Assembly: GCA_949358305.1 (NCBI GenBank)
Contig: OX442314.1
Coordinates: 52,087,162-52,151,161 of the forward strand
Length of the DNA stretch: 64,000 bases
Source: Strigamia acuminata
Taxonomy: Eukaryota > Arthropoda > Chilopoda > Geophilomorpha > Linotaeniidae
Direction: 5' to 3'
Position 1 is the stretch's first letter. Each line of letters begins with the position of its first letter. The notes under the pieces are model-generated. The model was given only the letters and a program-made list of their open reading frames with translations. It did no database searches and was not told the DNA's origin. This document shows positions 20,066 to 55,700 of this stretch, piece by piece. The translations under genes and the position numbers were made by a program.

Positions 20066-20067
20066 CG

Positions 20068-31273: not shown

Positions 31274-31303
31274 TATTTCCCCCAACGTTGGGGGAAATAA
31301 TAT

Positions 31304-31805
31304 TGTTACGCGGTAGAGCCGTACCGTGTATCGGCTGGCTCTGCTCGCTCTGTTTAGGCATTTAATACAATGAATTCTCACTAGACGGCGCTGTGCACCT
31401 AATTAGATGCACAGACCGTTCAACTTAGTTGATAGGGGGAATAGGAGTTTACTTAGTGAGTTGATTAAGCCAGAGAGCTCAGATCTCTTTTGAGTCTCAA
31501 CCTGTTACCTTCACCTACTACTGCCAGCCGGTTGACGGTCAGGCAGGACTAGGTTTTCTAAACTGAATTGAATTGACAACAGCATCATCCTTATTTAGTT
31601 ATTTATTTGATTTGAATGAATGATTTATATTTTAGGTTAATAAATGAACAAATGTAATAAGAGCTGTTGACCGAACATTTACATTAGTAAATGTCCGACT
31701 TTGAATAATAAAGCCAATAGGCATTTTACATATAAAACCCTGTGTCATTCTTGATCAAATTCATGTCACGTAGGACTAAATCAATCCCCATTTAGCCACG
31801 TAACA
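31304..31805 (+). repeat. E3 5' LTR
   Basis: Starts TGTTACG, ends CGTAACA. 502 bp, identical by eye to 39804-40305; AATAAA signal near 31707. Confidence 0.95.
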
Positions 31806-31807
31806 AC

Positions 31808-31821
31808 TGGTGGAGATGCGG
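31808..31821 (+). other. E3 primer binding site (tRNA-Ala-like)
   Basis: TGGTGGAGATGCGG, two bases after the LTR. Its first 12 bases complement the 3' end of insect tRNA-Ala (GCATCTCCACCA). A related site is at 43513 in the deleted relative. Confidence 0.6.
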
Positions 31822-32349
31822 TCTCGATTGTAGCCCGTTTAGATTTAAAATCCCATTAAAATTGGATTAAAATTGCCAAAATAATTTAATAAAAATCTAG
31901 AAATAATTAGTGAAAATTGCTGATTTTATAGCAATTATCTTGAATGACTCAGAGTTGGTAAAAACAAGTGAAGTCACAGCTTGAATATTTAATGTCATTG
32001 TGTGAAATAATTTGCATTTTGGAAATGAAAATAGAGTTTAATTGTTGATTAGGGATTAATAAATTGATTTACAATTGTTATATTTAGAATAAATAAAATA
32101 TATAGTGTATAAATACTAATTTTGATATTTATTTACAGGAAATTTTGTGAATTTATAGGAATTGAAAAAATTGTTTTGAAATGTTATTGATGGATTATTT
32201 TCTTTGTACTTTTGAGTGTAATATTTATGTATTATATGCTAATAACACTTTAAGTTTTCAGGTAAAGAATTCGTGTTAGTGTAGTCAGTGTTTAGAAAGT
32301 GAATCAGTGCTAGTGAAAGTGATAAAAAGCGCAATATAAAGGCTTTAGT

Positions 32350-33681
32350 GTGGCTAAGCCAATAAAATTGTCGCAGTTCAATACGGATAATCTTCAAGAT
32401 TTGCAAAATTGGGAATTGCCCGAACCGGATTTGAAATTTATCGCTACTAGAAAGAAAAGGAACACTGGATCTGAATCTGACACTGAACCTCAGAAGGAAG
32501 ATAAGGAAGTCCGATCTCAACCTCAATCAATCCTACAGAAGTTGGATTTCGCTACTCCGTTAATAAAATTAATTCCACAAAAAGGTTTAGAAGAAATAAT
32601 AAAGACATTTACACCAGTAAAGACTAAACCAGTTCCAACACCAATTGAACCAAATTTTCCAAAAATGACATCATCACAGACTCCAACGGACGTATTGACC
32701 GACTTACTGAAGAGTTTGGTAGTGCAGAAGCGACCTGTTGTCACTTATGATACAGAAAAGGGCAACATCGACCAATGGCTTGTGGCATATGAAGCTACAA
32801 TAGGAACAGATGATGAGAGAGTAAAACATCTAGCATTAGCCTTAAAGACTGATGGATTGGCATGGTTTGTGGAACAACTAAAGAAGAATCCGACATGGAA
32901 ATGGACGGATTGGAAACCACAGATCGAGAAAAAATTTAGAAGAAGCCAAGAAAATGTTTACAATACTCTCCACTTCATGAAACACAAAGAGGGTACAGCA
33001 GATGCCTTCATGAAGAAAGTCTTGGCCGAATGTGCGTTTATTCTACCAGAAATGACTGAAACTCAGAAAATAAATTATGTTTACCAAGGTTTGAAGCCTG
33101 CAATGCAGAAGATGATGATAACGGTATTTCCATCGACGTTAGAAGAAATGGAACAGAGACTTAAATTGTATGAAAGTCACAAAACAGAAGAACCAGCGGA
33201 TCTACTGCTCACAATGTTCAAAAAAGTTGTAGATGAAAAGGTGAACCCTACGACAACAGGTATACTGTCTGGAACAGGGGGATCCCCAGTAAGCTACGCC
33301 GAGTTATTAGCTGAAAATATCAAATTAAAACAGCAAAAGCTCGTAAGTGAGTCAGTAGAGCCACAACAATTGGTTCCATTATTCATACAAGGCGAGTGGT
33401 ATATTCCAGCATCGCAGCGCGGACAGAACTTTAGAGGTAGATACAACAGAGGTAGACAGCGGTCAAATAGCAGTCCGACAACAACGCGTCCATGTGGATG
33501 TTGGCATCGTTATGGTTGTGAACATAACACATCAGTGCCACAGGAGCAACAATCTCAGGAAAATAGAGGGAACCCAAACAATAGAAGGTGGTTTAAGAAG
33601 AAAAGGACACAAGGGGGTGGTAAAACTAACCCTAATCCTAAGCAGAACCCACAACAAGGTCAACAAGAAGAGGAAAACTAG
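32350..33681 (+). CDS. gag: E3 gag
   Basis: The open frame begins after stops at 32317-32322 and has no ATG for about 300 nt. GTG at 32350 is only the first near-cognate codon; the first ATG is near 32665. Either initiation is non-AUG or the first 105 codons are untranslated. Residues about 130-285 form a capsid-like helical domain (IDQWLVAYEA ... WFVEQLKKNP ... FMKKVLAECAFIL). The C-terminus is basic and Gly/Arg/Asn-rich, with a compact C-x-C-x5-C-x-H cluster (nt 33493-33525) in place of a standard CCHC knuckle. The stop is TAG at 33679-33681. Pol overlaps the last 40 nt in the -1 frame. Confidence 0.85.
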   Translation: MAKPIKLSQFNTDNLQDLQNWELPEPDLKFIATRKKRNTGSESDTEPQKEDKEVRSQPQSILQKLDFATPLIKLIPQKGLEEIIKTFTPVKTKPVPTPIEPNFPKMTSSQTPTDVLTDLLKSLVVQKRPVVTYDTEKGNIDQWLVAYEATIGTDDERVKHLALALKTDGLAWFVEQLKKNPTWKWTDWKPQIEKKFRRSQENVYNTLHFMKHKEGTADAFMKKVLAECAFILPEMTETQKINYVYQGLKPAMQKMMITVFPSTLEEMEQRLKLYESHKTEEPADLLLTMFKKVVDEKVNPTTTGILSGTGGSPVSYAELLAENIKLKQQKLVSESVEPQQLVPLFIQGEWYIPASQRGQNFRGRYNRGRQRSNSSPTTTRPCGCWHRYGCEHNTSVPQEQQSQENRGNPNNRRWFKKKRTQGGGKTNPNPKQNPQQGQQEEEN

Positions 33682-36600
33682 TGGGTCGGCCACAAAGAAG
33701 ATGTCACCATCAACAAGGAAGATGTTGCCATCCAAAGAAGAAAAGAAAAAGTAGAAAAGAAAAGATAATCGTAGTCGAAATGAACATTTCAGAATCTCTA
33801 TTGGAAATTCCAGTAATAGTGAACAACATGGAAGTCAAGGCAGTTATGGACACTGGAGGAAAACGCAACGTTATCAGCGAAGAGCTTGCTGAAGCTTTAC
33901 AGTTGAAGTACCCGCCAAGCCCAAATATACGATTACAAGGGGTAAGCGGAGAACTTGTGACTCCAATAGGAAAAGCCAAGATGAACATTACAATTGGTGA
34001 ATTAACATACAGGATCGAGGTCCTGATTGTTAAAGGATTTCATTATGAACTACTGCTAAGTGACCCATTCATGCTGTTCGCGAAGTGTGTGTTAGACTAC
34101 GACAAACAAAAAATCTTTGTGGGCCGAACTAGTGGAAAGGAAGTGTCATTTCCAATGAATAAAACTTTTGTTGATCAGAATTATGTTGCGAGGGTAATGA
34201 AAAACATCACAATTCCACCAATGCATGAGTGCATTGTTCCCATCTATTTGAATAAAGCAATAACATTGGACATGTTTGTACAACCATTACATAATGTCAC
34301 TGATAGATTTGCTGTGATAGGTTGTAAAACTTTAACAGATTTCAAGAACGGAAAAGGCATCATTCGAGTGGCTAACCCAACCAAGAAGACAGTCTTTCTG
34401 AAGGAGAAGTCAGCAATCGCAAAAGCTTATTATGTGGTTGATGTTGGGGTGTTTGACGAAAAACAGGTACACTGTTTTGACTTTGACTCCTCAATAGCAA
34501 AAGACAAAATGAATAAAGACCAACAAGAGCAAATGCGACAACTTCTTCAAAAGAATCAAGACAGATTTGCTGTTTCTGACAAGGATTTGGGAAGAGTTCA
34601 AGTGTATAAGCATAAAATCGATACTGGAGACCATGACCCAATACATTTGCAACCGTATCGTCGTTCTATGAAGGAAAAAGAAGTCGAAGCAGAGGAAACA
34701 AAGAAATTGCTTGATATGGGAGTGATAAGGGAATCAGAAAGTCCCTGGAGCGCGCCTGTATTGCTAATAAAGAAAAGAGATGGTAAGTGGAGATTTTGTG
34801 TCGACTGGAGACGTTTGAATGCGATAACAAAGAAAATGGTGTACCCATTGCCAAGAATAGATGACACTTTAGATCAGCTGGCAGGTGCACAATTCTTCTC
34901 CATGATGGATCTTATTCAAGGATATTATCAAGTCGAAATAGATGAACAAGATCGCGAAAAAACAGCATTTACCACTTCAAGCGGACATTTTGAGTTTAAC
35001 GTCCTAGGAATGGGATTATGCAATAGTCCAGCGGCTTTTCAAAAGTTAATGAATAAAGTTTTAGGCAACCTCCTAGGCAAAGTTTGTATAGCGTACATTG
35101 ACGACCTTATCATTTTCTCTAAAACATTCGATCAGCATTTGAAAGATCTAGACAATGTTTTCGACAAGCTTAGACAATCTAACTTAAAGGTGAAGTTGAG
35201 CAAGTGCACATTTGGGACAAACACCATTAAGTATTTGGGACATGTCGTGGACTCTGAGGGTATATCACCAGACCCTAGGAACTTGGAATCCGTCGCGAAG
35301 TTTCCAGTTCCTACTAACCTCAAACTTCTTCGAGGATTCATAGGGCTCTGTTCGTATTACAGGAAGTTCATTCCAAGTTTTGCGGACATATCCAAGCCCT
35401 TAGTCAATTTGACGAAGAAGGACGAGAAATTTGATTGGGGCCCACCTCATGACAAGGCCTTCAAAACATTGAGGACCGCCCTTATCACCGTGCCAGTGCT
35501 TGCGCACCCTAATTTTGAAGAACCCTTCATGGTATCGACAGACGCGAGCGCATATGGTCTTGGAGCAGTGTTGAAACAGAAGATAAACAAACAAGAACAT
35601 GTGATAGCTTATGCCAGCAGACTTCTCAGCCAAGCAGAACAGAATTACACAGCCACGGAAAGGGAATGTCTGGCTATTCTGTTTGGAATTGAAAAGTACC
35701 GACCTTATCTGTATGGTAAGAAGTTCCAGATAATTACAGACCATTCGGCACTTCAATGGCTAAAATCAGTCAAAAACCCCAATGGCAGACTAGCTAGATG
35801 GAGCCTACAGCTAGTAGACTTTGATTTCGATGTGATCTACAAGAGCGGAAAAGCGCACAAAGATGCCGACGCCTTGAGTAGGATTCCAGAAGATTTAAGC
35901 GAGGAAGAAAACAAAATAGTTCCCTCACTTTTACTCGAACAGCTCGACCTTCCTGCTGAGCAGCGTAAGGACAAGAAGCTACTGGAATTGATCACCGCAA
36001 TGAATCAAGTAGAGCAACTTCCGAAGAAGAGAAGACGTCCTCTAAAGCAGTTCGTCCTTCTCGATAACGTGTTGTTTAGGAAGAAAAATTCTCTGAATTC
36101 CCTAGACACGGAAGTAAATCTGTTATACGTTCCACAGCATTTGAAAACGGCCGTTCTTGAAGAAATGCATGATGGACTGACGGGTGCTCACTTGGGCCTA
36201 AACAAAACATGGAAGAGAATGAGAACAAGATTCTTCTGGCCCCGGATATATAAAGACGTTAGAAATTACGTACTTTCTTGTCCACATTGCGCGAGCTCGA
36301 AATCAATGACGACAGCGCCAAAAGGTTTAATGCAGCCGTGGTCTACGATATCTAAGCCTTTCGAGAGGATTGGAATCGACACACTGGGAAGTTTTCCGAC
36401 CTCCGACAAGGGCAACAAGTATGTTTTCGTAATGACAGATTATTTGTCGCGGACAGTGATTGCTAGAGCAGCTCCAGCATCAACAGCGTTGGAAGCAGCT
36501 AGAACTCTGCTTTATGAGTTAATGTTGAAGGAAGGCAGTCCGAGAGAAATCCTGAGCGATAGAGGCACAGAATACAGAAACAAAATGGTGGAAGAAGTAT

Positions 36601-37625
36601 CAAATATGTTTAAAGCCCTACATAAAACCACTTCAGGGTACCATCCAAGGACCAATGGCCTCACAGAAAGATTCAATGCGACGTTTGCAAAAATGTTGCA
36701 GATTTATGTTGATAAGGACCAGAGGGACTGGGATGATTTTTTGCCATTTTTGCTTTTCTCGTATAATACCGGTGTGCACGAGACAACAGGATATACACCT
36801 TATTATCTTTTGAAAGGATATGAAGTTGATTTGAACGTGGACGTAAACCTCAACTTACCTCAAAAAGAATTTACCTTGCGAACCTCAAAATTCATCAGAG
36901 AAGCTAGGAAAATAGCAAATGAAAGGTTGGAATGGCAAGGAGAAAAAAGCAGAAAAAGATTCGATCAAGGCCGAGTTCATGTGGAATTTGACCCAGGAGA
37001 ATTAGTATATCTCAAAACACCCAATAGAAAAGTTGGGTTAAGTGAAAAACTCCTGCCACAATTCTCAGGCCCATACGAAATAGTAAGAAGAACCGCGCCA
37101 AATGACTACGAAATTAGAAGTTCAAATGGAAAGAAAACAGATATTGTTAATATTGAACGATTAAAACCGTATAAACCCAGAGAAGAAATTCCAGCGGAGA
37201 TATTAGAAGAATTGACAGCTAAAAAAGTCACATTTGCTGATGAAACTGCAACACAAAGTGAAAAACAACAAGAAATTGAAGAAAACACGTCAATTTCGCC
37301 AATTCCGATCGCTAAAGAACGATTTATTAGCGATGACGATCAAATTTCGTTAAAAACACTCTTTGAACCTGAAGAAAATACAACAAAAGTGTCAAATTTC
37401 CCAATTCCAAGTGAAAAAGAGCGATTAAAAGCGCTCTATGGACCGAAAGAAATTATGGAAAGATGGCAAAACGAAGACGAACGGAAAAACAAAGAAAATC
37501 AATTGCAAAAACCGCCGACAGGTGTCGTTGACGCAGTCGATGACGCGTCGCCGCCTGAAATCGAGAGTTTCCGGTCACGTCGCCTTCGCAAACAGGCTCG
37601 TCGTGACTACAGTGGATTGTGTTAA
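33681..37625 (+). CDS. pol: E3 pol: protease, RT, RNase H, integrase
   Basis: The -1 frame is open from 33642, overlapping gag by 40 nt; the first ATG is 33781. No canonical X_XXY_YYZ heptamer is seen in the overlap; GGAAAACTAG is the nearest candidate slip region. Order: aspartic protease (VMDTGGKRNVIS); reverse transcriptase (FCVDWRRLN, MDLIQGYYQ, active site YIDD); RNase H (STDASAYGLGAVL); integrase with zinc region (HLGLNKTWKRMR ... CPHCASSK) and catalytic D (IDTLGSF), D (SDRGTEY), E (NGLTERFN); and a GPY/F-like module (FSGPYEIVR). The C-terminal 150 residues are charged. No inactivating change found. Confidence 0.93.
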   Translation: MGRPQRRCHHQQGRCCHPKKKRKSRKEKIIVVEMNISESLLEIPVIVNNMEVKAVMDTGGKRNVISEELAEALQLKYPPSPNIRLQGVSGELVTPIGKAKMNITIGELTYRIEVLIVKGFHYELLLSDPFMLFAKCVLDYDKQKIFVGRTSGKEVSFPMNKTFVDQNYVARVMKNITIPPMHECIVPIYLNKAITLDMFVQPLHNVTDRFAVIGCKTLTDFKNGKGIIRVANPTKKTVFLKEKSAIAKAYYVVDVGVFDEKQVHCFDFDSSIAKDKMNKDQQEQMRQLLQKNQDRFAVSDKDLGRVQVYKHKIDTGDHDPIHLQPYRRSMKEKEVEAEETKKLLDMGVIRESESPWSAPVLLIKKRDGKWRFCVDWRRLNAITKKMVYPLPRIDDTLDQLAGAQFFSMMDLIQGYYQVEIDEQDREKTAFTTSSGHFEFNVLGMGLCNSPAAFQKLMNKVLGNLLGKVCIAYIDDLIIFSKTFDQHLKDLDNVFDKLRQSNLKVKLSKCTFGTNTIKYLGHVVDSEGISPDPRNLESVAKFPVPTNLKLLRGFIGLCSYYRKFIPSFADISKPLVNLTKKDEKFDWGPPHDKAFKTLRTALITVPVLAHPNFEEPFMVSTDASAYGLGAVLKQKINKQEHVIAYASRLLSQAEQNYTATERECLAILFGIEKYRPYLYGKKFQIITDHSALQWLKSVKNPNGRLARWSLQLVDFDFDVIYKSGKAHKDADALSRIPEDLSEEENKIVPSLLLEQLDLPAEQRKDKKLLELITAMNQVEQLPKKRRRPLKQFVLLDNVLFRKKNSLNSLDTEVNLLYVPQHLKTAVLEEMHDGLTGAHLGLNKTWKRMRTRFFWPRIYKDVRNYVLSCPHCASSKSMTTAPKGLMQPWSTISKPFERIGIDTLGSFPTSDKGNKYVFVMTDYLSRTVIARAAPASTALEAARTLLYELMLKEGSPREILSDRGTEYRNKMVEEVSNMFKALHKTTSGYHPRTNGLTERFNATFAKMLQIYVDKDQRDWDDFLPFLLFSYNTGVHETTGYTPYYLLKGYEVDLNVDVNLNLPQKEFTLRTSKFIREARKIANERLEWQGEKSRKRFDQGRVHVEFDPGELVYLKTPNRKVGLSEKLLPQFSGPYEIVRRTAPNDYEIRSSNGKKTDIVNIERLKPYKPREEIPAEILEELTAKKVTFADETATQSEKQQEIEENTSISPIPIAKERFISDDDQISLKTLFEPEENTTKVSNFPIPSEKERLKALYGPKEIMERWQNEDERKNKENQLQKPPTGVVDAVDDASPPEIESFRSRRLRKQARRDYSGLC

Positions 37626-37712
37626 GGTTTTCTGAGACGAACCGGGTTTACTGTGTGACTCAAAGAAACCTAAAGCATTAATAACAGCAGCAGTTGATTT
37701 GTGTGTGATTCC

Positions 37713-38010
37713 GTAAGTGAAGAGAGTGAAATTTAGAACGAATTTGGCGAGCAAATAGCTTAAAAACGAAACGAATAACATCGCGAAATGGAAATTTAGG
37801 CTTAAATAATTGTGTTAAAACTTCAAAATGAAATTTTAGTGTGTGCATACATTATCAAGTGACTAATTAGTTAAAAAATTGTTAAATTTAGTGTAAATTA
37901 GTGCAACATGAAATTTTAAATGAAATAACGAATGGAAATTGAAAAATTTTTGTGAAAATTTTGAATTAATGAAGTAATTTATTTTATTTTCTTTTCAAAT
38001 AATATATTAG
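37713..38010 (+). other. Candidate intron upstream of E3 ORF3
   Basis: Strong donor GTAAGTGA at 37713; acceptor TATATTAG at 38009-38010, after a T-rich tract, 7 nt before the ORF3 ATG. A non-coding exon would precede it. Confidence 0.4.
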
Positions 38011-38017
38011 AATCCGA

Positions 38018-39391
38018 ATGGACGAAATGGCAAGCAAATTTGATCGGATGGATGTGCGTAGTGATAGTGACAGCGATGCGGATTCGGTTTGCTCGATGCA
38101 AGTGGGCGATCTTTTGGAACGTCAACTTAAGAAAGGCGATGACTTGGAAATTTATTTAGCAAATAAGCCGAGCACAAGTAAAACTTTGGACGAATTGGTT
38201 AACTGCCCACGCCCGTTTACAGAAGGAAAACAAAAGGCGGAGGAAGACAAAAAGAAATATGCAGGACCATTAACAAAGGGTGAAGAAGGCTTATTGCGTC
38301 GTCGTCGTAAAAATCGACAATTGAAACGAGATAAGAAAGCACAAAAGAAGAAAGTGTTTAATGAGCAATCGAAAAGAATCCGGGAAGAAGAAATGCGTCA
38401 CACCGTTGATCGAAACAAACGCCGATTAAATGATTTGCGAATGGAGCACCGGAATATGGTCAACGCCATTAGAGCCAGGAAATTAAAAGGAGTGATGGGA
38501 TTGCCCGACTATCAGTTGTGGAGAACAGGGGCGAATGCTTTGCTGATCCAGGAGGCGAAAATAAGGAAAAACATTTTAAAAGCCATCGCCTTAGCGAGAA
38601 GAGAGTCCTTCCAGGACCCTAGTGTAGTATTTCCTACTCCTATACGGGTATACCGTGTGGAGTTGGACGCTGCACGACAGGTCCAGGCTCTCGGACTTGC
38701 ATTAGACTATAGTAATGCGCCAAAATATGACTTAGCATTCGACGCCGTAGGTTGTCCGCCGATTAAAGTCATGAACTATCAGATGGCAGCATTAGGCGAC
38801 CTAACGCCGGGACGACAGAGCTGGACGTATGACAGCGTCGTTGATCATTACCTCCAACTGTTAGAAGAGCGATATCCCATATTGGCACCAATTCAATCTG
38901 AGTGGGTCTTCAAAATGGTGGACCCAGCTAAACGAAAGGAAGCGATCTATTGGCTAATGAAGAGACTTCCAAGTGCTCAAAAGAAGATTTGGGTGTTTCC
39001 AGTTCCTATTGAAGAGCATTGGCAGCTTTTCATAGTGGATTGGCGGAAAAAGCCAACCCAATACGTGCTTTATGACCCAAGTGGACCAATAGAGCGCACA
39101 TATCCAAAGTGGGAATCTTTAAGATACTCGTTGATGGATGCAGGAGTAAAGTTTCCAAACAAATTCATACGTTGGGACCCGCCACGTATGCACCAATTGG
39201 ATAATGACAGCTGTGGCCCAACCATACTCTACTTCGTTAGAAGATACGTTGAAGACCGGGACTTAATGCAGTTTGGGGAGCCGTGTGAGTTACGCTTACG
39301 ATTTGTGTATGAGATTGCAAATCGTGAAATTCTCCCATTCGAGTTGATCAAAGAAGAGGATAAGAAGGATCAAGCGGAAGGAGGAGAGTGA
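38018..39391 (+). CDS. E3 ORF3: Ulp1-like (C48) cysteine protease
   Basis: 457 codons with a proper ATG (GAATGGACG), 7 nt after a 3' splice site. Residues 1-60 are acidic; 85-150 are strongly basic and coiled-coil-like (RRRRKNRQLKRDKKAQKKK). The C-terminal part (about 265-430) is a Ulp1/SENP-type domain. Expected catalytic residues: His334 (EEHWQLFIVDW), Asp353 (YDPSG), Gln393 and Cys399 (QLDNDSCGP), with the family's Gln-x5-Cys spacing. Such proteases remove SUMO or related modifiers or cleave viral polyproteins (adenain). Here it sits downstream of pol in the env position. Its role could be processing of Gag, deSUMOylation, or host interference; the sequence does not decide. A deleted relative (43513-44160) keeps part of the same ORF. 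Confidence 0.85.
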   Translation: MDEMASKFDRMDVRSDSDSDADSVCSMQVGDLLERQLKKGDDLEIYLANKPSTSKTLDELVNCPRPFTEGKQKAEEDKKKYAGPLTKGEEGLLRRRRKNRQLKRDKKAQKKKVFNEQSKRIREEEMRHTVDRNKRRLNDLRMEHRNMVNAIRARKLKGVMGLPDYQLWRTGANALLIQEAKIRKNILKAIALARRESFQDPSVVFPTPIRVYRVELDAARQVQALGLALDYSNAPKYDLAFDAVGCPPIKVMNYQMAALGDLTPGRQSWTYDSVVDHYLQLLEERYPILAPIQSEWVFKMVDPAKRKEAIYWLMKRLPSAQKKIWVFPVPIEEHWQLFIVDWRKKPTQYVLYDPSGPIERTYPKWESLRYSLMDAGVKFPNKFIRWDPPRMHQLDNDSCGPTILYFVRRYVEDRDLMQFGEPCELRLRFVYEIANREILPFELIKEEDKKDQAEGGE

Positions 39392-39803
39392 AGTGAACTT
39401 TAACTTCTTTAAGTGAATAAGTGTAAAATCAACACGAACTTTGAACATTTTTTTTTGTGTGTGTGTTTTTTTTTTATTTTATAGAAAATTGAAAACTGAA
39501 AAAAAGTAATATAAAACAAAGAAAAACCAAAAAGTGTTATCATTGATGAAAAGTGTTAATTTTATTTAATTTTAAACTTTGAATATTATTTCCAATGTAA
39601 AAGTGTAATAAAAAGTGACTATGACATTTATAAACATTGAAAAGTGAGTTATATGATATTTTTGTAAAAATAAGGATGATGAAAAGAGATTCTCAAAATT
39701 GTAAAATTGAGTTTATGATTTGAATTTTTTAATGTGAAAGGAGATGCGTTAGTTAGAACAATTCATTGTTTTTCGAGAGACCGAAAAAATTAAAGGGGGG
39801 GGC
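39392..39803 (+). other. E3 3' untranslated region with polypurine tract
   Basis: AT-rich, no gene. It ends AAAGGGGGGGGC directly before the 3' LTR. Confidence 0.6.
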
Positions 39804-40305
39804 TGTTACGCGGTAGAGCCGTACCGTGTATCGGCTGGCTCTGCTCGCTCTGTTTAGGCATTTAATACAATGAATTCTCACTAGACGGCGCTGTGCACCT
39901 AATTAGATGCACAGACCGTTCAACTTAGTTGATAGGGGGAATAGGAGTTTACTTAGTGAGTTGATTAAGCCAGAGAGCTCAGATCTCTTTTGAGTCTCAA
40001 CCTGTTACCTTCACCTACTACTGCCAGCCGGTTGACGGTCAGGCAGGACTAGGTTTTCTAAACTGAATTGAATTGACAACAGCATCATCCTTATTTAGTT
40101 ATTTATTTGATTTGAATGAATGATTTATATTTTAGGTTAATAAATGAACAAATGTAATAAGAGCTGTTGACCGAACATTTACATTAGTAAATGTCCGACT
40201 TTGAATAATAAAGCCAATAGGCATTTTACATATAAAACCCTGTGTCATTCTTGATCAAATTCATGTCACGTAGGACTAAATCAATCCCCATTTAGCCACG
40301 TAACA
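39804..40305 (+). repeat. E3 3' LTR
   Basis: Identical by eye to 31304-31805; followed by ATAT. Confidence 0.95.
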
Positions 40306-40552
40306 ATATGTACCTTATTTCCCCCAACGTTGGGGGAAATAGTCGGCCCTCACTGGCCAGACTATTTCCCCCAACAACCTTTTTTTGTACGGTAGGGGGA
40401 AATAACATGTACCTTATTTCCCCCAACGTTGGGGGAAATAGTTGGCCCTCACTGGCCAGACTATTTTCCCCAACAACCTTTTTTTGTACGGTAGGGGGAA
40501 ATGCTTACGAACTAAGAAATGGAAATTTTTTAGTGATGATGCGGAAGAAAAT

Positions 40553-41221
40553 ATGGAATGGGTTGAAGTATGTTCGATTCCGCTAAACATGAAGCATTTA
40601 TCGATTTTAAGGGGCATTGCTTTTCTCGACGGTAGTATTATTGATGCAGCTATGGGTATGATGAAAAGAGATTACCCTTCTGTTCAAGGACTACAATCAG
40701 TAAGTTTTGGTGCTAGCCGTTTACCAACATTCAGTCCGTGTTCAGATTATTTCGTTCAGATTTGCCACGTGAATAATAACCATTGGAATGTTGTTTCCGG
40801 CAAAATTGGGGAAAGCGCTATCGTTATAAACGTGTACGATTCACTTCTGAGTGATGTACATGATAAAAACATTTCTGTTGTTAGTAGTTTGGTTCGGTTA
40901 TGTAATGACTCATTGAAATTGAATGTACAGGTACAAAGTTGTACAAAGCAAAAAAATTCACATGACTGTGGGTTATTTGCAATTGCAAATGCTTTGTTTC
41001 TCTGTGATAATAAGAATCCCAGCAATTTCAGTCCTAGCCACCCTGCTCTAAGAAAACATTTGGTAAAGTCTTTTTCGCAGCATAGTACGCGATTTGAATG
41101 TTTTCCATCCGATAACATTTCCGGATTAAAACCAAAGAAAAAAAAATGTTACGATAGGTTGTTGGGGGAAATAGTCTGGCCAGTGAGGGTTGACTATTTC
41201 CTCCAACGTTGGGGGAAATAA
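40553..41221 (+). CDS. Transposon-borne Ulp1-like (C48) protease
   Basis: The frame is open from the left inverted repeat (about 40442). I take the first ATG at 40553. The domain shows catalytic His (VNNNHWNVVS, about 40781), Asp (NVYDSLL, about 40838), Gln and Cys (KQKNSHDCGLFAIANALFLC, Cys at about 40967), again with Gln-x5-Cys spacing. The C-terminus runs into a KKKK stretch and reads into the right inverted repeat before the TAA at 41219-41221. It is a different subfamily from E3 ORF3: the Cys box here is HDCGLFAIA, the form common in DNA-transposon-associated Ulp1 genes. It appears intact, and is the only gene of the palindromic transposon. Confidence 0.7.
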   Translation: MEWVEVCSIPLNMKHLSILRGIAFLDGSIIDAAMGMMKRDYPSVQGLQSVSFGASRLPTFSPCSDYFVQICHVNNNHWNVVSGKIGESAIVINVYDSLLSDVHDKNISVVSSLVRLCNDSLKLNVQVQSCTKQKNSHDCGLFAIANALFLCDNKNPSNFSPSHPALRKHLVKSFSQHSTRFECFPSDNISGLKPKKKKCYDRLLGEIVWPVRVDYFLQRWGK

Positions 41222-41255
41222 AGTACATGTTATTTCCCCCAACGTTGGGGGAAAT

Positions 41256-43284: not shown

Positions 43285-44292
43285 GTTCCCTAATGTCGAC
43301 GCACATTGTGTGTCATTTACACATTAGCGTTGTATTTGTGTTGCCTTGATTTGATTTAGTTTGATTTATATTCTTTTGTGTATTATTTAGTATTTAGTTA
43401 GATTAAGAATAAAGATGTTTTTTATATTATCATCTTAACATTGAGTCCTTCTCAGTTATTTTCTAGCCAAGCATTTACTTGGTTCAAGTTACCTCTGGGC
43501 CACGTAACAAAGTGGTGGAGATGCGGGGCAATTAAAGTACAACATTGAAGTTTTAATAGTAAGAGGGTTCAATTATCAACTTGTGTTGGAAGATCCTTTC
43601 ATGGATTCTGCAAAATGTGTCGTCGATTACGATCCACAAAAAATCTTTGTTGGCCGAAATAGTGGACAAGACTGTCAAACGCAACGAACGACGTCTGAAA
43701 GAGCTCCGTCTAGAACAGCGCAGTGTGGTCGCCGAAGTAGAGAAAAAGCGATTAAAAGGCAAAGAAGGGAAAAAGATTTACGACGCCTGGTATGCTGCTG
43801 CGAATGAGTTGCTTAAGCACGAGGCCCTTATACGGAAAAATATTCAGAAAGCAAAGGCCCTAGCCCGTCGAGCATCATATGTAGACCCCAACATAGTGAT
43901 GCCAGTACGATTGCATTCATACGAGGTTCAACTGGATGAAGAGAAGAAATTGATGGCACTTCAAATTGCCCTTGATTATCTTTGGAAATCACTGGATGAA
44001 ATTGTATTCATTGTGTGACCCGATGATATTAATCAAGAACCATGAGATGGCAGCTTTGGGTTATTTGAACCTTGGGAAACAATCATGGGTCCACGGAAGC
44101 GTGGTAAACAACTATCTTGACATGCTTACGAAACAGCAAAAGAAAACATGTTTGAATTGACGCATCTGATGATTGAGTTGATTTAGTTAGATGAAGAATA
44201 AAGATGTGTTTTATATTATCATCTTAACATTGAGGCCTTCTCAGTTATTTTCTAGCCAAGCATTTATGTGGTCCAAGTTACCTCTGGGCCAC
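43285..44292 (+). mobile_element. E5: internally deleted relative of E3
   Basis: An LTR-like segment ends GCCACGTAACA at 43509, then a primer site TGGTGGAGATGCGGGG at 43513. It has a protease-region piece (43531-43665; IEVLIVRGFNYQLVLEDPF resembling E3 pol near 34017). At about 43665 it jumps to sequence matching E3 ORF3 residues 129-230 (KRNERRLKELRLEQ ... IRKNIQKAKALARR). The Ulp1 catalytic domain is lacking. A partial 3' LTR repeat follows (about 44173-44292). The 5' border is uncertain. Confidence 0.65.
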
Positions 44293-46689: not shown

Positions 46690-48594
46690 TTAGTCGCCGA
46701 CGTCACCATCGTCGCTGTTATCGTCGATCTCATCGTCGCTCCAATCGTCGCTCTCTTCGCTGCTCTCATCGTCGATCTCATCATCATTAGAATCGGAAAT
46801 GAGTAGTAGCTTCACCCCGTATCGCTCAGCCGTTTGCTGCATCATGTGAGCGTCGAAAAGCTGCTGTCTTCTCGGCCCACCAAGGTCCAAACTCAAATCT
46901 AACTCGACCAGAGATTCGATTTTGCAAAGATTCTCAATCGCTGCCGGTCCCAATAAATCACCTTCAACAAGTTTCAAACGTTTGAGTTTCTTCTTCGCCA
47001 TAAACTTGACAAACTCGCGTACTATTTTATCGCTGAAACCCACCGCAGCAATCCCAAACTGAAAGCTGCTCGAGATTCGGACACATGTCCAACACCTGGA
47101 AAAAACGACCGGAAGAAACCCAAACATCCAAGGGACCGAGCATAGAAAATTCAACCAAATTCTCCAAACACAAATGACGCAAATTAAACAAAGTGGATTT
47201 GTGTCATCTATGGTGACACTTTCGCCCATACCAGCACTCAAGGAGGTCAACTCCTTGAATTTCGTCAAACTGTTGAGCATTTTGAGGGTGAAAACCTCCA
47301 ATTCGATGTATATTGTGCAAACTTTGGGACACGTGAGCACGGCGATGTCCAGCACATCTTCAATGCAGTGATCGCGGGGCCGGAGATACAATTTTCTCAG
47401 ATTGTATTGCTGTGGTGGCGAGTCAAGTGGCAAGAGAGACTTGAGCCACTCACTGCAATCTACACTTCCAATGTCTTCGATCGATGGCATCGTGTTCAAT
47501 ACAAAGCAGTAATCGGCTGAAATGTCGTCACCCTCAAGTTCGACTACTCGCAAGCTCTTCCTGAGTGAGGAATCTTCTCCGCACAGTTTTCTCACAAAAG
47601 CTTGTGTGGTTTCAAGGATACGAAGCTCTACGAGTGGCAGTTGGGCGATGTGTATGGCCGCATCGTCTTCGAAAGCAACGCCGGGAATATGAAGTGTCCG
47701 TAGATTTGGCATTATACGGCACATTTCTTTGCAAGCACTGGCTGTGAGGGGACTTTCCAAGGGAAATAAGATATAAGTCTGTCAGATTCTATATGATAAA
47801 TACAATTAGAAGAATTCAAACAATGTGCTCGAGAATTTTACGGACAAAATACATTTTACAACAGAAAATGCAAGTTTTTGTCGGATAAAGCATTTTTGTC
47901 CGAAACTTTTTTTTTCTTAGAATATTGCATTTTTTCTGCAAATCAATTTTTTTTTTACCTCAAAATGCTATTTTCTGTACGCAAATGCATTTTAATCTGT
48001 TTGCAAATGCATTTTTTCTGCAAATCAATTTTTTTTTTACCTCAAAATGCTATTTTCTGTACGCAAATGCATTTTAATCTGTTTGCAAATGCATTTTTTC
48101 TATTTGTAAATTAATTTTTTTATTTTTAAATACATTTTTCTATCTGTAAATGCATTTTTTCACCTCAAAATGCATTTAAAATTCTGCATAAGCACTTTTT
48201 TGATACTCACTTTCAACTTGTGGCCGCTAATTGTAAGTAAAAATTCCAAATCAAAATTTGGACTGCTAAACCTCATGTCAAGTATTCTCTGTTGCTCGTA
48301 GAGCAATGGAACGACGTCCCACGCTTCCGGCCTGCGAATTTCGAAGTCCCAAAAATCCTCCTCCTCATTCAAACTCGTCAGCATTTGGTCGCGAACGGTA
48401 TAAGCTAAATCGGACCGTGTGTTATTAATAATCACGAAATAAATTCACAAATTCAAGCGTAACTTACGTAGGTTGTCGAAATAAGCAATTAATTGCAACG
48501 TGTTTTTCATTTCAACGTCGTCCATTTCCTCAACGTTTCGTTGAATCATACGACCGAAAAGAATTCGAATTGCCAAGTCGCTTAATGTCTGCAT
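46690..48594 (-). pseudogene. LRR protein gene, copy 1, frameshifted
   Basis: Exon 1 runs 48594 (ATG, MQTLSDLAIRILFGRM) to 48468 with GTAAGT donor; exon 2 48404-48211 with GTGAGT donor; exon 3 47788-46690. Exons 1-3 join in phase. Exon 3 matches copy 2 (57056-58195) over its leucine-rich repeats and acidic Asp/Ser tail (DDWSDDEIDDNSDDGDVGD). It has a +4 nt difference near its start (about 47750) that shifts frame. A block at about 47040-47190 also reads correctly only in another frame (LCLENLVEF and VLDMCPNLE). The N-terminus is like the leader of F-box/RNI-type LRR proteins, but no certain F-box is visible. Probably a recent pseudogene. Confidence 0.6.
47878..48190. repeat. Intron 2 tandem repeats of LRR copy 1
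   Basis: An 80-odd-bp unit (TTTTTCTGCAAATCAATTTT ...) is present twice, followed by degenerate AATGCATTTTTT copies. Similar sequence in larger number lies at the same place in copy 2. Confidence 0.7.
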
Positions 48595-49698: not shown

Positions 49699-49936
49699 TG
49701 TGGTGTATTAACACCACAAGGAATTTATGCAGGCTTTATTGCATTGAATTAGTACATTGTATTGCCAATAATACAATGTACAAAGCAGCATGTAGCTTTC
49801 ATCTTTTTCCCTCTAGTGACAGTTGGTCAGGTTACTGACAAATAAATCTACTCTGTTTAGAAGAGTGGAGGATGAAGTTTTGGCCCAACTGGTCTCCTGT
49901 GTTTTATTTCCCATCTCCAGGGCAAAGATGGTAAAG
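49699..49936 (+). repeat. E4 5' LTR
   Basis: Starts TGTGGTGT. The 3' border lacks the usual CA (ends GTAAAG), so the end is fixed by comparison with 55463-55700. Confidence 0.9.
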
Positions 49937-49954
49937 TGGCACCCTGAACAGGAC
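49937..49954 (+). other. E4 primer binding site (tRNA-Lys-like)
   Basis: TGGCACCCTGAACAGGAC differs at three positions from the lentiviral-type tRNA-Lys3 site. Confidence 0.6.
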
Positions 49955-50606
49955 AGCAGAACCCTGGATTAAAGAGAAGTGAACCGTATCTTTAAAATTT
50001 TTTTTTTTGGAATGGATTCTGTCTTTCTTTTCCGTATTTTCAGATAGTTAGGCCTGGCTTAGGCCTAACTAGTATTACTTGGGACTTGCTAGGGTTACTA
50101 GGCCCAGTTAGGCCTATCTAGGGTTATTAAGCCTAACTTCAGATTTTGCCACCAGGAGGTCAACAATGACTCCAGCCATCGTCTGAGCAACAAAGGGCCG
50201 CAACAATGACACCAGGGAACAAAGATCCCAAAGAATGCCCCTGACAATGCCAACGCAACACTGTGTCATTATAAGCTCTCAGCTTAGGTAGTGCTAGGGT
50301 TTCCTTTTCCCACTAGGGTACGGTAAGGGGATAATAGCTGCACACATCAAGCCACCTCCCAGGAGAGGCTGGCCAGTGCTGAACCCAGCTTAGCTCCTCG
50401 GAGAAGTACCTACTGGGAAGGGGGTCAGGGCAGGTTTGGGAAGTGAGAGCACTCACTGAATTGTTGCACTTATCTGGATTGTTGGACCGGATTTCATCGC
50501 AATCACGGAGTCACGACTGACAAGTTACCCGGCGGCGGTGGATAGTGACGATGACCCGGAATTGGTAGCTGGCGTAAACCAGGAGTCGCAGACAAGCTTA
50601 TCTGGA
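49955..50606 (+). other. E4 5' leader
   Basis: Non-coding leader with TAGGCCTAACTAG-type short repeats (50045-50130). The gag frame is open from 50460 but has no ATG until 50607. Confidence 0.5.
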
Positions 50607-51668
50607 ATGGCGTCAACAAGCGGAGCTGGGACAGCCTATGTGGCGCACGTGCCCCCATTTCAAGGCAAAACCGAGACGGATTGGAGTTTGTGGGTTGAAC
50701 GGTTCGAGTTCATGGCGAAGCTACACAAATTCTATTCGGATAAAGATAATCTGAAGATGTTCTTGGTGGCCTCGATGGGCGCAGATACGCATGCCCTGCT
50801 ACACAAGTTGACTGCCCCGACAACGATTTCGGATATGACTTATGAGGACATAGTCGAAAAGATAAAGGCATACTTTAGTCCGGCGGTACCTCCAATTATT
50901 ATCCGGAACCGGTTACGAAAGCGAGTACGCCAGCCAAAGGAGTCGGTGGCATCGTATGTTGCTGTTCTCCGCGGTCTTGCAGAGAAGGGAGAATACGGAG
51001 ACTCTAAGCAGGTGGACTTTGCGGTCATGGACCAGTTGATTGAGGGACTGGGGAATGCCACGGCAACACAGTACATTCTCCTGCAAAAGCCCAAAACTTT
51101 AAAGGAGGCAATGGAGATGGCCATGGCATTCAAAGGCGCCGCAGCTGGTGTGGCGGACATGCAAGCCACTACATGTTTTGAACCAGATAATGGAAGGGAT
51201 ATGGTTTTACCCATGGTTCCCGCTAGCATGGTGGCTTACAGCTCTCAGCCCCCTATGGCCCATGTTTATACCAAGGGTGTGGTGTTGCCACAAAGGCCTT
51301 TTGTGAGCACTGGTCAGTCCACCCCTGTGCGCCCGCGAGGTGGTTTACCTTACGGTGCCTGTTGGTATTGCGGTGAAGTGGGACACCTGAAAAGAGATTG
51401 TCCCATGAGGCAACAGGTGCAACAGACGGGTCGTGGTCAACCGATGCAGATGCGGGATGCAAATGCAGGACCGTCTGGGACCCAACAGCGTGGTCAAAGA
51501 GGGCGTACCGGACGCGGACGCGCACGCGGTGGTGGTCAAAGGCCTGCATACCAGCCCTTTCAGCAGAGTTGCACCCCAATGAATTATGTTCCTTCGGTCA
51601 CTCAACCGGGATGCCAAATTCGGAATCCCGATTATGACCAGGATGACCCCTTCCGCATGTCAATGTGA
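50607..51668 (+). CDS. gag: E4 gag
   Basis: I start at the first in-frame ATG (50607, MASTSGAGTAY). The frame is open upstream, including a GTG at 50538, so a longer form is possible. A capsid-like domain (WSLWVERFEFMAKLH ... RQPKESVASYVAVLRGLAEKG) is followed by one CCHC zinc knuckle (CWYCGEVGHLKRDC, nt 51359-51400) and an RGRG-rich basic tail, both RNA-binding features. It ends with UGA at 51666-51668. Pol continues in the same frame right after it, so a share of ribosomes must read through to make Gag-Pol. Confidence 0.88.
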   Translation: MASTSGAGTAYVAHVPPFQGKTETDWSLWVERFEFMAKLHKFYSDKDNLKMFLVASMGADTHALLHKLTAPTTISDMTYEDIVEKIKAYFSPAVPPIIIRNRLRKRVRQPKESVASYVAVLRGLAEKGEYGDSKQVDFAVMDQLIEGLGNATATQYILLQKPKTLKEAMEMAMAFKGAAAGVADMQATTCFEPDNGRDMVLPMVPASMVAYSSQPPMAHVYTKGVVLPQRPFVSTGQSTPVRPRGGLPYGACWYCGEVGHLKRDCPMRQQVQQTGRGQPMQMRDANAGPSGTQQRGQRGRTGRGRARGGGQRPAYQPFQQSCTPMNYVPSVTQPGCQIRNPDYDQDDPFRMSM

Positions 51669-54600
51669 CTTGGTAAGATCCCCGTGGTAGCAACAGTGGA
51701 TACTGGCTCAAGATACTCGTTGATCTCCAGAGATACTTTAATGAAGTGGATGACCTTAAGCAACTTGACATGGCCTGTACAACCGACCAACATTACGTTG
51801 ATTGGTTATTTTGGCGAAAGGAGACCCGCACTTGGGGAGATCTACCTACCGGTTAGGGTAGGAGATGAAGAAGTGAAGTTGCGGTTCTTGGTCACTGCTG
51901 GTCAGGCCACAATACTGCTGGGCAGGGAAGCCACGAGGCAATCTCGTTCTGTGAAAACTTTCCTGATCAACAGGCTGGAGAGACAACAAGGGATGCACCA
52001 CGGGATCAATGGGTCAATGACCCCACAAGACTTAATTGCGGAGTTGGAAGAGGAGGACACTGTATTGAGACTGTTACTTCAGGAGTACAAGGATGTTTTT
52101 GAGGCCTCTTTGGGTTTATATACAGGTCCGCCTGTACAACTTTACCTGAAAGAAGGTGTAAAGCCGCGCTTCTTTCGCGCGAGGCCTGTACCTGTAGCCT
52201 TGCGTACAGCAGTGGAAAAGGAACTGGAAAAGGGAGTTGCGGATGGGATTTACCAACCAATCGCATTTTCGGATTGGGCAACCCCGCTGGTCATAGTTGA
52301 CAAGAAGGACGGTACAGTGCGGTTATGCGGAGACTACCGGTCAACTGTGAACCCAGCTATCTTACCGGATCCATACCCACTGCCTAGAGTTTCTGATATT
52401 ATGGCTAAGCTTGGAGGAAAGAAGTATTTTACCAAGCTTGACATCAGACAGGCGTACCAACAGGTATTGCTCACTCGGGCGAGTTCATTTATAGCTGCAA
52501 TCAACACTCATAAAGGACTCTATGCAGTTAACAGATTACCTTTTGGTACCATATCAAGCAGCGGAGTATTCCAAAGGATTATGGATACAATGTTTGCTGA
52601 CCTGGATGATGTCTCACCATATCAGGATGATATTTTGATTGCGACGGACACATACGAAGAACATGTGAAGGTGGTCAGAGAAGTCCTGAGAAGACTCAGA
52701 GGAGCGAATCTGCGACTTGTAAGACGGAAATGCAAGTTTTTTAGGACGCAGGTCGCGTATCTGGGATTTCAAGTGGACAGTAGAGGAATTCGACCATCTG
52801 GAGACAACGTCGCGGCGATTAAGAAGATGCCAGCACCCAACAACTTGCAAGAACTGCGCTCATTTCTGGGGATGGTCCAATTTTATCTGCAATTTCTACC
52901 GCATTTTGCGAAGGTCGCAGAACCACTGCGAGAGTTATTGCAGGGGAACGCATCCTGGGAGTGGACGCAAAGAAGAGCCACCGCTTTTAATACCATTAAA
53001 GAGATGATTACTAGTGAGAGCCTCCTAGTGCACTACTCACTCCATCATCCACTGGTCCTGGTTGTCGACGCCAGCCCAGTGGGAGTGGGGGCAGTGTTAA
53101 ACCACGTGTTGGACAACGGGGAGGAGCGGCCAGTCTTGTACGCGTCCAAGTCACTCTCGCCAACTCAGAGACGCTACAGCCAGACTGACCGAGAGGCATC
53201 GGCAATCATCTATGCGGTGCAGAAGTTTCACCAGTTCTTATGTGGGAGAAAGTTCAGGATTGTAACTGACCACAAGCCATTGCTCGGAATATTCGGAGTG
53301 ACCAATCCTACACCAAATATTATTAGCCCTAGGATGCTAAGGTGGACAATTATCTTGGCAGGCTACAACTACTCAATAGAGCACAGACCAGGTCTGGACA
53401 TTCCAGTGGCTGATGCATTGAGTAGATTGCCACTGCCAGCCACCAAGATCACGGAGCAATGGGAACAAGAACTGGAGGAAGAGCAGCATGTGCGCTTCTT
53501 AGTCGAAGACTCGATAATTACTCGTGAGCAATTGGAAATGGCCACGTTACTGGATGATGACCTGCACCACGTAATGCAATACGTGAGGAATGGATGGCCG
53601 GATAAGGTCAAGGCATCATTACAGCCATTTAAGTCGCGCAAGACAGAATTGGCAGTCCATCATGACATATTGCTATGGGGACATAGGGTGATAATACCAC
53701 CTAGTCTGCGCAAGAAGGCCATGGATTTGCTTCACGAAGGTCATCATGGGATAGTCATAATGAAGAACAAGGCGGCAGCAACAATATGGTGGCCGGGGAT
53801 AACAATGGCGATTGAACAATACGTGGCACAATGTGTTGTGTGTCAACAACACCAGCATGCACCGCCACGTGACAATCCCATTAGTTGGCCAAGACTTGCT
53901 AGACCTTGGAGCAGGATCCATATTGATTTTGCCGGACCGGTCAAGGGCAAGATGTTCCTCATCTTAGTGGACTCTTTGACCGGATGGATGCACGTAGACT
54001 TGGTACCAAGCACGTCATCGGCAGCTGCAATTGCTGTGATTAAAAGGAAGTGCGCAGATTTTGGTCTGCCTGACACAATTGTTTCAGACAATGCCACAAC
54101 CTTCACCAGCGAGGAATTTAAGGGATTTATCCGGCGAAACGGTTTACTACACTTGTTCTCACCTGCATTCCATCCACAGTCCAATGGACGAGCGGAGAGA
54201 GCGGTACAGACCTTTAAAGGCAAACTGGTTAAGATGGGAATGGTCAATATCCAGGAGCAATTGGATAAGTTCCTATTTTACCAGCACAGTACACCGGGAG
54301 CGGATGGAAAATCCCCAGCTATGCTGATGTTGCAAGGGCATTTTAAGACCCATCTGGACACACTGAAACCAACTGTGGGAGCGGCTCAAGAGGACCGGCG
54401 GCCACCTAAGAGGGTATTAGCCCCGGGACAGGAAGTGTGGGCTCGTTCATACAGGAAGGGAGACGCGACATGGATTCCGGCTATAGTGAAGACTAGGAAG
54501 GGGGATGTCGTGTATGAGACCCAGCGTATGGACACCCAAGAGGTTAACGACCGCCACATTAATCAGTTGAGACCGCGGCATCCACAGGCTGGGGAGCAGG

Positions 54601-55217
54601 TGATTGCACCCAGAGAAATCCAAGACACGATCGTACCTAATGTACCGTGGAATCCGATGCCTGAAGAACCCAGGCCAAGGAAGTTGGGAAGGCAGCACAC
54701 AGTGATCGTGACGAGGACGGTACCAGTTCCTGTTATGGAGCCAGTCCCCGTTGCGGGACCGGCAAACACAGATGAAAATGTGGTTTTACCAGAAGTGCAG
54801 CCGATCCCAGGTCCAAGCGGCTGGGCAAGGACCGAGGTGCAGAAGACCCCTCGGGTGGCCCCAAGGACAATGCGGGACAAGACTGCACCGGTCCGAAGGA
54901 TGCTTGCGCCGCCCCCATTCGATGTGACACCACGCACGAGGGCTCAGTTTGACTTGTTCCATCAAAGGAGATTGCAACAAGCAGCCAATGGAGTCACTGT
55001 CCCTCCAGCGGTGCAACCGACAGATGAACAGACGCAACCTGACATAAGATCCACCGATTCGGAGGAAGAGTATGATGACGCGGAAGAGGAAATTCAGGAT
55101 CCGAAAGACCCGGATTACCAACCATCGCGTCGGAGTTTAGACTATATAGATAGAAACCTTGGGAATCGGGCGGATGACATAGTGTTGCGTTCGCATTCGG
55201 CTGGAGGACCGCGCTAG
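51669..55217 (+). CDS. pol: E4 pol: protease, RT, RNase H, integrase (read-through of UGA)
   Basis: In frame with gag and separated from it only by the UGA at 51666-51668 (context AUG UGA CUU). No ATG precedes the protease, so independent initiation is unlikely. Order: aspartic protease (VDTGSRYSLIS, just 11 codons after the stop); reverse transcriptase (RLCGDYRSTVN, LDIRQAYQQ, active site YQDD); RNase H (VVDASPVGVGAVL); integrase with zinc region (HHGIVIMKNKA ... CVVCQQ) and catalytic D (IDFAGPV), D (SDNATTF), E (NGRAERAV). The C-terminal 250 residues are Pro/Arg-rich then acidic. Appears intact. Confidence 0.92.
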   Translation, partial: LGKIPVVATVDTGSRYSLISRDTLMKWMTLSNLTWPVQPTNITLIGYFGERRPALGEIYLPVRVGDEEVKLRFLVTAGQATILLGREATRQSRSVKTFLINRLERQQGMHHGINGSMTPQDLIAELEEEDTVLRLLLQEYKDVFEASLGLYTGPPVQLYLKEGVKPRFFRARPVPVALRTAVEKELEKGVADGIYQPIAFSDWATPLVIVDKKDGTVRLCGDYRSTVNPAILPDPYPLPRVSDIMAKLGGKKYFTKLDIRQAYQQVLLTRASSFIAAINTHKGLYAVNRLPFGTISSSGVFQRIMDTMFADLDDVSPYQDDILIATDTYEEHVKVVREVLRRLRGANLRLVRRKCKFFRTQVAYLGFQVDSRGIRPSGDNVAAIKKMPAPNNLQELRSFLGMVQFYLQFLPHFAKVAEPLRELLQGNASWEWTQRRATAFNTIKEMITSESLLVHYSLHHPLVLVVDASPVGVGAVLNHVLDNGEERPVLYASKSLSPTQRRYSQTDREASAIIYAVQKFHQFLCGRKFRIVTDHKPLLGIFGVTNPTPNIISPRMLRWTIILAGYNYSIEHRPGLDIPVADALSRLPLPATKITEQWEQELEEEQHVRFLVEDSIITREQLEMATLLDDDLHHVMQYVRNGWPDKVKASLQPFKSRKTELAVHHDILLWGHRVIIPPSLRKKAMDLLHEGHHGIVIMKNKAAATIWWPGITMAIEQYVAQCVVCQQHQHAPPRDNPISWPRLARPWSRIHIDFAGPVKGKMFLILVDSLTGWMHVDLVPSTSSAAAIAVIKRKCADFGLPDTIVSDNATTFTSEEFKGFIRRNGLLHLFSPAFHPQSNGRAERAVQTFKGKLVKMGMVNIQEQLDKFLFYQHSTPGADGKSPAMLMLQGHFKTHLDTLKPTVGAAQEDRRPPKRVLAPGQEVWARSYRKGDATWIPAIVKTRKGDVVYETQRMDTQEVNDRHINQLRPRHPQAGEQVIAPREIQDTIVPNVPWNPMPEEPRPRKLGRQHTVIVTRTVPVPVMEPVPVAGPANTDENVVLPEVQPIPGPSGWARTEVQKTPRVAPRTMRDKTAPVRRMLAPPPFDVTPRTRAQFDLFHQRRLQQAANGVTVPPAVQPTDEQTQPDIRSTDSEEEYDDAEEEIQDPKDPDYQPSRRSLDYIDRNLGNRADDIVLRSHSAGGPR

Positions 55218-55462: not shown

Positions 55463-55700
55463 TGTGGTGTATTAACACCACAAGGAATTTATGCAGGCTT
55501 TATTGCATTGAATTAGTACATTGTATTGCCAATAATACAATGTACAAAGCAGCATGTAGCTTTCATCTTTTTCCCTCTAGTGACAGTTGGTCAGGTTACT
55601 GACAAATAAATCTACTCTGTTTAGAAGAGTGGAGGATGAAGTTTTGGCCCAACTGGTCTCCTGTGTTTTATTTCCCATCTCCAGGGCAAAGATGGTAAAG
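55463..55700 (+). repeat. E4 3' LTR
   Basis: Identical by eye to 49699-49936. Confidence 0.9.

Follow-up and report, generated by a model that had tools for sequence, protein, structure and literature searches.

A Ty3/Gypsy retrotransposon lineage of Strigamia acuminata with a predicted C48 (Ulp1/SENP-like) peptidase gene in the env position

Ulp1-like cysteine proteases are known from both DNA transposons and non-LTR retrotransposons. In the sections of PMC4640811 that treat them, NeSL elements and one Utopia element (Utopia-1_TSP), non-LTR retrotransposons of nematodes, carry a Ulp1-like protease at the N-terminus of the reverse transcriptase protein. The DNA transposon Ginger1, as described in the corresponding part of PMC2836005, has terminal inverted repeats and combines a gypsy-type integrase with a Ulp1 domain at the C-terminus of the transposase, and the same text reports a Ulp1-like gene (ULP1) aboard Mutator-like DNA transposons. 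Enzymes also occur as the third open reading frame (ORF3) of LTR retrotransposons. In the bdelloid rotifer elements Vesta and Juno, the main text of PMC5408684 describes a GDSL esterase/lipase or a DEDDy exonuclease that stands in place of env, with intact catalytic residues, and is missing on some branches. Insect errantiviruses, which are gypsy elements with env, have gag, pol and a third ORF that is env, while Troyka elements have no env (relevant sections of PMC12440569).

Here we describe E3, a Ty3/Gypsy element that can be compared with each of these systems. As with NeSL and Utopia-1_TSP, a Ulp1-like cysteine protease is encoded by a retrotransposon, but E3 has LTRs and its protease is a separate ORF after pol. 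Like Ginger1, it unites a gypsy-type integrase with a Ulp1 domain, but E3 has direct LTRs, gag and reverse transcriptase; with the Mutator-like elements it shares the Ulp1-like gene, but those are DNA transposons. Its third ORF is in the env position as in errantiviruses, but it is of the C48 type and has no hydrophobic membrane-like segment. As in Vesta and Juno, an enzyme takes the place of env, but the enzyme is a different one. Enzyme ORF3s in LTR elements are therefore already known from the sources cited, and what would be new here is an enzyme of C48 type as ORF3. A preliminary description of this locus, made from its sequence, noted that Ulp1-like genes are cargo of DNA transposons, which Ginger1 and the Mutator-like elements bear out, and knew of no established LTR lineage with such a gene. 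Likewise, we saw none with a C48 ORF among the matches listed from the open-access PMC literature, nor in the relevant passages of PMC8220671, PMC6338049 and PMC7998251; in the main text of PMC5408684 neither 'Ulp' nor 'cysteine prote' occurs. With E3, the range of mobile elements that carry Ulp1, so far DNA transposons and non-LTR retrotransposons, would come to include LTR elements, and the env position can apparently hold an enzyme of the C48 kind.

E3 occupies positions 31304-40305 of the window, a 64,000-nucleotide stretch of contig OX442314.1, and all of its features are on the forward strand. The 5' LTR (31304-31805, TGTTACG...CGTAACA, ends TG...CA) and the 3' LTR (39804-40305) are identical at 502 of 502 bases, and the element is flanked by ATAT target site duplications (31300-31303 and 40306-40309). 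E3 is therefore a recent, complete insertion, as had been described. When the flanks were rejoined without the element, the junction was, by eye, one base off the junction between two adjacent copies of a 99-bp repeat downstream. A putative primer binding site, named from its position, is at 31808-31821 (TGGTGGAGATGCGG), and TGGTGGAGAT follows the 5' LTR in E3 as well as in all six LTR-paired copies of the related families B-E described below. The gag ORF (32350-33681) has a weak match to the gypsy-type Ty3 capsid (PF19259, E=7.6e-4, 19.4 bits, below the Pfam cut-off of 29.1). Its frame contains no ATG between 32326 and 32665, though the match to other families starts upstream of 32665. The pol ORF (33681-37625, in the -1 frame relative to gag and open from 33642) encodes aspartic protease, reverse transcriptase, RNase H and integrase, which by Pfam is the gypsy order, and the best relatives found for it are gypsy-type pols. 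At the 3' end of the spacer (37626-38017), a T-rich run is followed by an AG right before the ATG of ORF3, a putative splice acceptor. ORF3 (38018-39391, 457 codons) has a charged, basic N-terminal half and a C-terminal domain similar to C48 (Ulp1/SENP) enzymes, and a polypurine tract (39786-39803) precedes the 3' LTR. Between pol and the 3' LTR, open frames reach 462 codons from stop to stop, far above chance: none of 1000 first-order Markov resamplings gave more than 171.

Searched alone, ORF3 of E3 matched no Pfam family at E<=10, PF02902 included, so its C48 assignment needs a search of the PDB or a family profile. Against the PDB, the single sequence matched human SENP1 over residues 265-439 (E=2.2e-4); all 13 matches below 0.01 were SENP1, SENP2, SENP5 or Ulp1, and the first non-C48 match appeared at E=0.99. 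With a profile of 14 ORF3 homologues the SENP1 match improved to E=1.3e-11, and all 17 matches with E<=1 were C48 enzymes (SENP1, SENP5, SENP2, SENP3, Ulp1 and bacterial XopD, with SENP8 absent among the 17). Seven of the 14 family members also matched Pfam C48 singly at E<=0.1, the best at 1.2e-4. The preliminary description had placed His334, Asp353, Gln393 and Cys399 in a 457-codon ORF in the env position, and both residues and coordinates are correct: His334 is followed by Trp335 (39017-39022), Asp353 is at 39074-39076, Gln393 at 39194-39196 and Cys399 at 39212-39214. These residues are in order and in register with the catalytic residues of SENP1, Gln393 being the oxyanion-hole glutamine and Cys399 the nucleophile by analogy. 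Trp269 (38822-38824) and Trp335 align with SENP1 tryptophans that line the Gly-Gly tunnel. All six residues are invariant in the 14 aligned ORF3s, down to 32% identity; the families vary at Asp272, the counterpart of a SENP1 aspartate. Two AlphaFold models made without an alignment had low confidence (pLDDT 45 and 41), and Foldseek with such a model gave no match at E<=1e-3 and no C48 enzyme among the 50 rows listed, so the C48 fold rests on sequence. By these matches, ORF3 is a C48 (Ulp1/SENP-family) cysteine peptidase and is predicted to be active, in agreement with the earlier reading as a Ulp1-like protease.

An envelope protein was also considered and rejected: no 19-residue Kyte-Doolittle window exceeded 1.43 in any of 13 ORF3s, and the ORF matches C48 enzymes instead. 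All 13 ORF3s checked contain a K/R-rich stretch, putatively resembling a nuclear-localization signal, with 10-14 basic residues of 25 (in E3, 13 of 25 at residues 87-111, positions 38276-38350). Together with the lack of a hydrophobic segment, this suggests that the product of ORF3 is nuclear. In each of the 12 copies displayed, inspection by eye placed an AG after a T-rich stretch no more than about 50 bases before the start codon of ORF3. Such a putative acceptor would suit a spliced ORF3 mRNA, as for env. A search for SL1 RNA (RF00198) gave no match, and its controls were silent too.

In the same genome (237.5 Mb), ORF3 gave at least 94 match rows, 80 of them without an internal stop. At least 45 of these belong to the E3 family (family A, 91-100% identical), and the remaining rows are 33-76% identical. 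These copy numbers are lower bounds because 93 of 506 candidates were scored; the pol search scored 111 of 6204 and a further genome search 93 of 671. We fetched 20 copies (up to 10 kb each), and in 12, which include all five families (A-E), gag, pol and ORF3 were found in this order. The other fetched copies were cut by the fetched edge or had lost gag or parts of pol, and one (L025) was ORF3 alone. Compared with E3, families B-E are 32-42% identical in ORF3 and 68-78% in pol where a long match is present, and the pol frame is open over at least 1,000 of 1,314 residues in 11 of the 14 fetched copies examined. Six of the seven B-E copies with both ends fetched have LTR pairs that are 99.6-100% identical (509/509, 515/517, 388/388 where the fetched edge cut the LTR, 583/583, 576/576 and 512/512 bases); in the seventh (L026) no LTR pair was found. 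Five readable copies have 4-bp duplications, namely ATAT, ATAT, CTAT, GTAT and GTAT. In a pol tree of E3 and 10 of the 14 copies, the five families formed one clade with a support of 100/100, and the nearest other pols found were 52% and 50% identical. The ORF3 tree, from which L012 and L013 were left out for their interrupted frames, agrees with the pol tree on the five families and on the grouping of D with E, with the order of A, B and C not settled. From these comparisons, E3 belongs to a Ty3/Gypsy lineage of at least five families, all with a gene of predicted C48 type in the env position. A one-off capture of ORF3 is out, given at least 94 rows and the same layout in five families. The preliminary description had already held that ORF3 belongs to its family; further E3 copies with the ORF in place were found, and all five LTR families carry it.

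That description had relied on a decayed, internally deleted relative downstream of E3 (43285-44292, forward strand). This relative retains an LTR end, the same primer-binding site as E3, pol residues 106-155 (68% identical to E3) and two pieces of ORF3 (residues 129-231 and 247-285, about 49% identical). The retained part of ORF3 is real, but it is weaker evidence for a family than was claimed: since the catalytic core is missing and the frame changes between the two pieces, this relative cannot by itself show that the protease is conserved. Over 142 codons its ORF3 differs at 60, 45 and 96 sites at the three codon positions, which agrees with purifying selection.

Relatives of ORF3 outside this genome were not found in the collections searched. 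The whole ORF3 was compared with 5.8 billion proteins and none was found among the 7997 candidates scored, a search in which the lysine-rich N-terminus may have crowded out other candidates; the catalytic region gave 202 candidates from the same collection, none at E<=1. Viral contigs and prokaryote genomes yielded no ORF3 relatives, and viral contigs no pol relatives. This absence is weak evidence, since these collections may contain few animal genomes.

ORF3 is under purifying selection, about as tight as that on pol. In a codon model, omega was 0.065 for ORF3 (0.072 in the N-terminal half and 0.058 in the catalytic half) and 0.070 for pol, and fixing omega at 1 was worse by about 1015 log-likelihood units. 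Because synonymous sites are saturated between families, which left 5 of 11 ORF3 pairs unreadable, close pairs give the cleaner dN/dS. Conservation with dN/dS below 1, which the preliminary description had proposed to look for, was found in the six readable pairs, at 0.05-0.09 (0.06, 0.05, 0.06, 0.07, 0.09 and 0.07), and pol in the same pairs gave 0.06, 0.07, 0.12, 0.08, 0.12 and 0.07. The selection argument is based on this model and these pairs and not on the variants within the E3 family, where near copies have 52 synonymous and 20 non-synonymous variants: the 29 rows counted are 27 distinct copies (E3 is L001, and L002 is L009) and come from the head of a list ranked by protein match, which is biased to few amino-acid changes. 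That ORF3 is a captured host gene riding as a functionless passenger would fit the copies without a detected ORF3, but we reject this as very improbable on dN/dS, with the catalytic residues invariant in five families and at least 80 of at least 94 rows stop-free.

The families may also have exchanged ORF3. Between copies of families D and E (L024 and L027), DNA identity is 74-96% over positions 301-6000 (gag and pol), 62-68% over 6001-8100 (spacer and ORF3) and then 87% for 300 bases. The last 900 bases of the gag-pol stretch already fall to 84, 80 and 74%, and beyond about 8400 the LTR too has diverged over most of its length (65-72%), so the picture of a clean cassette is weakened. Between L017 and L019, identity drops from 95% to 86% past the end of pol, without recovery. 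Synonymous divergence was greater in ORF3 than in pol in eight of the nine pairs in which pol was unsaturated. Such an excess would not come from selection on the protein. The likeliest reading is that recombination between families carries ORF3, often together with the 3' end; L024/L027 and L017/L019 are possible mosaic elements.

Copies without a detected ORF3 are repeated in the genome. Among the 50 pol matches listed at 90% identity or more, 43 had an ORF3 match within 4 kb downstream and seven had none. Three of these seven have their 3' LTR 1170-1276 bases after the pol match, compared with 2310-2640 normally. Three, two of which are also short-LTR copies, retain in full the sequence found after ORF3 in E3, and by arithmetic about 430 bases separate the expected end of pol from that sequence. 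At 81-83% identity, 61 pol matches were listed, 20 with ORF3 and 41 without; in 13 of the 41 the LTR is at 1217-1755 bases, compared with 2894-2910 (ten copies) or 4075 (one) when ORF3 is present. In all, 16 pol matches have no ORF3 match among those listed and an LTR too close for ORF3 to fit, while the other 32, one of which retains the post-ORF3 stretch, are classed by absence among the matches listed. The copies without a detected ORF3 are known from their coordinates, and many have pol frames of 1309-1360 residues. The pairing of ORF3 with pol used 93 of the 94 ORF3 rows at first and later omitted further D and E rows; none of the 48 pol matches without ORF3 is a partner of any of the 18 rows left out. 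Both forms, with ORF3 and without it, evidently exist in these families. Since open-pol copies without a detected ORF3 are repeated, ORF3 seems to be an accessory gene that is dispensable in cis. This favors a role in trans or directed at the host and disfavors an obligatory step in maturation. Moreover, the natural ORF3-containing and ORF3-less versions in one genome make the benefit of ORF3 measurable.

SUMO is needed for silent chromatin in a wide range of settings. The likeliest function of ORF3 would be the deSUMOylation of host silencing factors, one of the roles suggested by the preliminary description and a reading that we hold to be about evenly balanced against all of its rivals together. 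The protein would be made from a spliced or otherwise separate mRNA and may enter the nucleus through its basic N-terminal stretch. There the protease, predicted to be active, would act on SUMO in preference to ubiquitin or another modifier and strip it in trans from host silencing proteins; silencing would be loosened and the elements transcribed more. For a lineage of at least five families with a C48 ORF3, we give this whole sequence of events an even chance. In yeast, Ty1 RNA increases when SUMOylation is reduced or when Ulp1 is freed from the nuclear pore or inactivated (PMC8585004), and in C. elegans silencing directed by Argonaute depends on SUMOylated HDA-1 (PMC8131101). The yeast analogy is ambiguous because a loss of Ulp1 function also raises Ty1, and the case for SUMO specificity is weakened because Asp272 is not conserved. 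If deSUMOylation of silencing factors is correct, a SUMO-type protease under constraint in several young families would arm them directly against SUMO-dependent silencing, and would offer a case, open to testing, of an animal transposon that encodes a suppressor of silencing. A broader scenario is more doubtful: a gypsy lineage would have swapped env for a SUMO protease that disarms silencing, its families would exchange this cassette much as viruses exchange env, and their ORF3-less relatives would use ORF3 in trans.

ORF3 might instead remove SUMO or ubiquitin from the Gag or integrase of the element itself, for protection, nuclear entry or integration. The C48 similarity and the basic, possibly nuclear N-terminus would fit this equally, and Ginger1 transposases pair Ulp1 or OTU with an integrase, for which a role in transposition was suggested (section on Ginger1 in PMC2836005). 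We nevertheless consider it unlikely, as several copies do without a detected ORF3 and the proteins of the element thus seem not to need it.

Somewhat less likely again is a different substrate, with the anatomy unchanged: ubiquitin or a ubiquitin-like modifier other than SUMO. NEDD8 or ubiquitin is the substrate of some C48 enzymes, and the variable Asp272 would be in keeping with this. However, the profile matches were to SENP1, SENP5, SENP2, SENP3, Ulp1 and XopD without SENP8, and both tryptophans aligned with SENP1 are invariant. We regard it as equally improbable that ORF3 serves maturation as an additional protease, cutting Gag or Gag-Pol in the manner of the adenovirus protease. Adenovirus-type proteases (adenain) cut capsid proteins, and ORF3 looks like a cysteine protease, is under constraint and belongs to a gag-bearing element. 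However, pol already encodes an aspartic protease, the closest matches of ORF3 are eukaryotic SENPs, and the repeated open-pol copies without a detected ORF3 suggest that particles mature anyway, unless ORF3 acts in trans. Gag processing, one of the roles suggested in the preliminary description, is thereby made less likely.

Directly downstream of E3, a second Ulp1-like ORF (40442-41221, 259 aa) is located between inverted repeats (40302-41243), and E3 is inserted at the edge of the repeat that carries it. This ORF matched Pfam C48 at E=8.3e-5 and OtDUB in the PDB at E=2.8e-5. Its relatives in the genome have frames of up to 1083-1212 residues, including nine that are equal-scoring, 1083 residues long and stop-free, and the repeat is probably a DNA transposon with Ulp1 cargo. 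An origin of ORF3 from this ORF was rejected, with no detectable similarity between the two (BLASTP gave E=0.20 for a stretch of 22 residues that is not catalytic). Further C48 domains were found in open frames of 1075 residues at six places (G000 C1:47590268 and five more) and of 1828 residues at two (C1:22252003 and C1:33635212), which are perhaps further mobile elements with Ulp1.

The window contains two other gypsy-type elements. One (7575-20367, minus strand) has identical 300-bp repeat ends, gag and pol, and an extra frame of 929 codons downstream of pol (8625-11414) that has no Pfam match. The other (49699-55701) has identical terminal repeats (239 bp seen) and frames for gag and pol; between its pol and 3' repeat, nothing of 150 codons or longer was listed as an open frame. 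Two related frames (46690-47781 and 57056-58369, minus strand) share DNA blocks that are 81-90% alike, one of them with weak leucine-rich-repeat matches and the other without. A fragment of a sodium-channel (ASC) gene is also present in the window.
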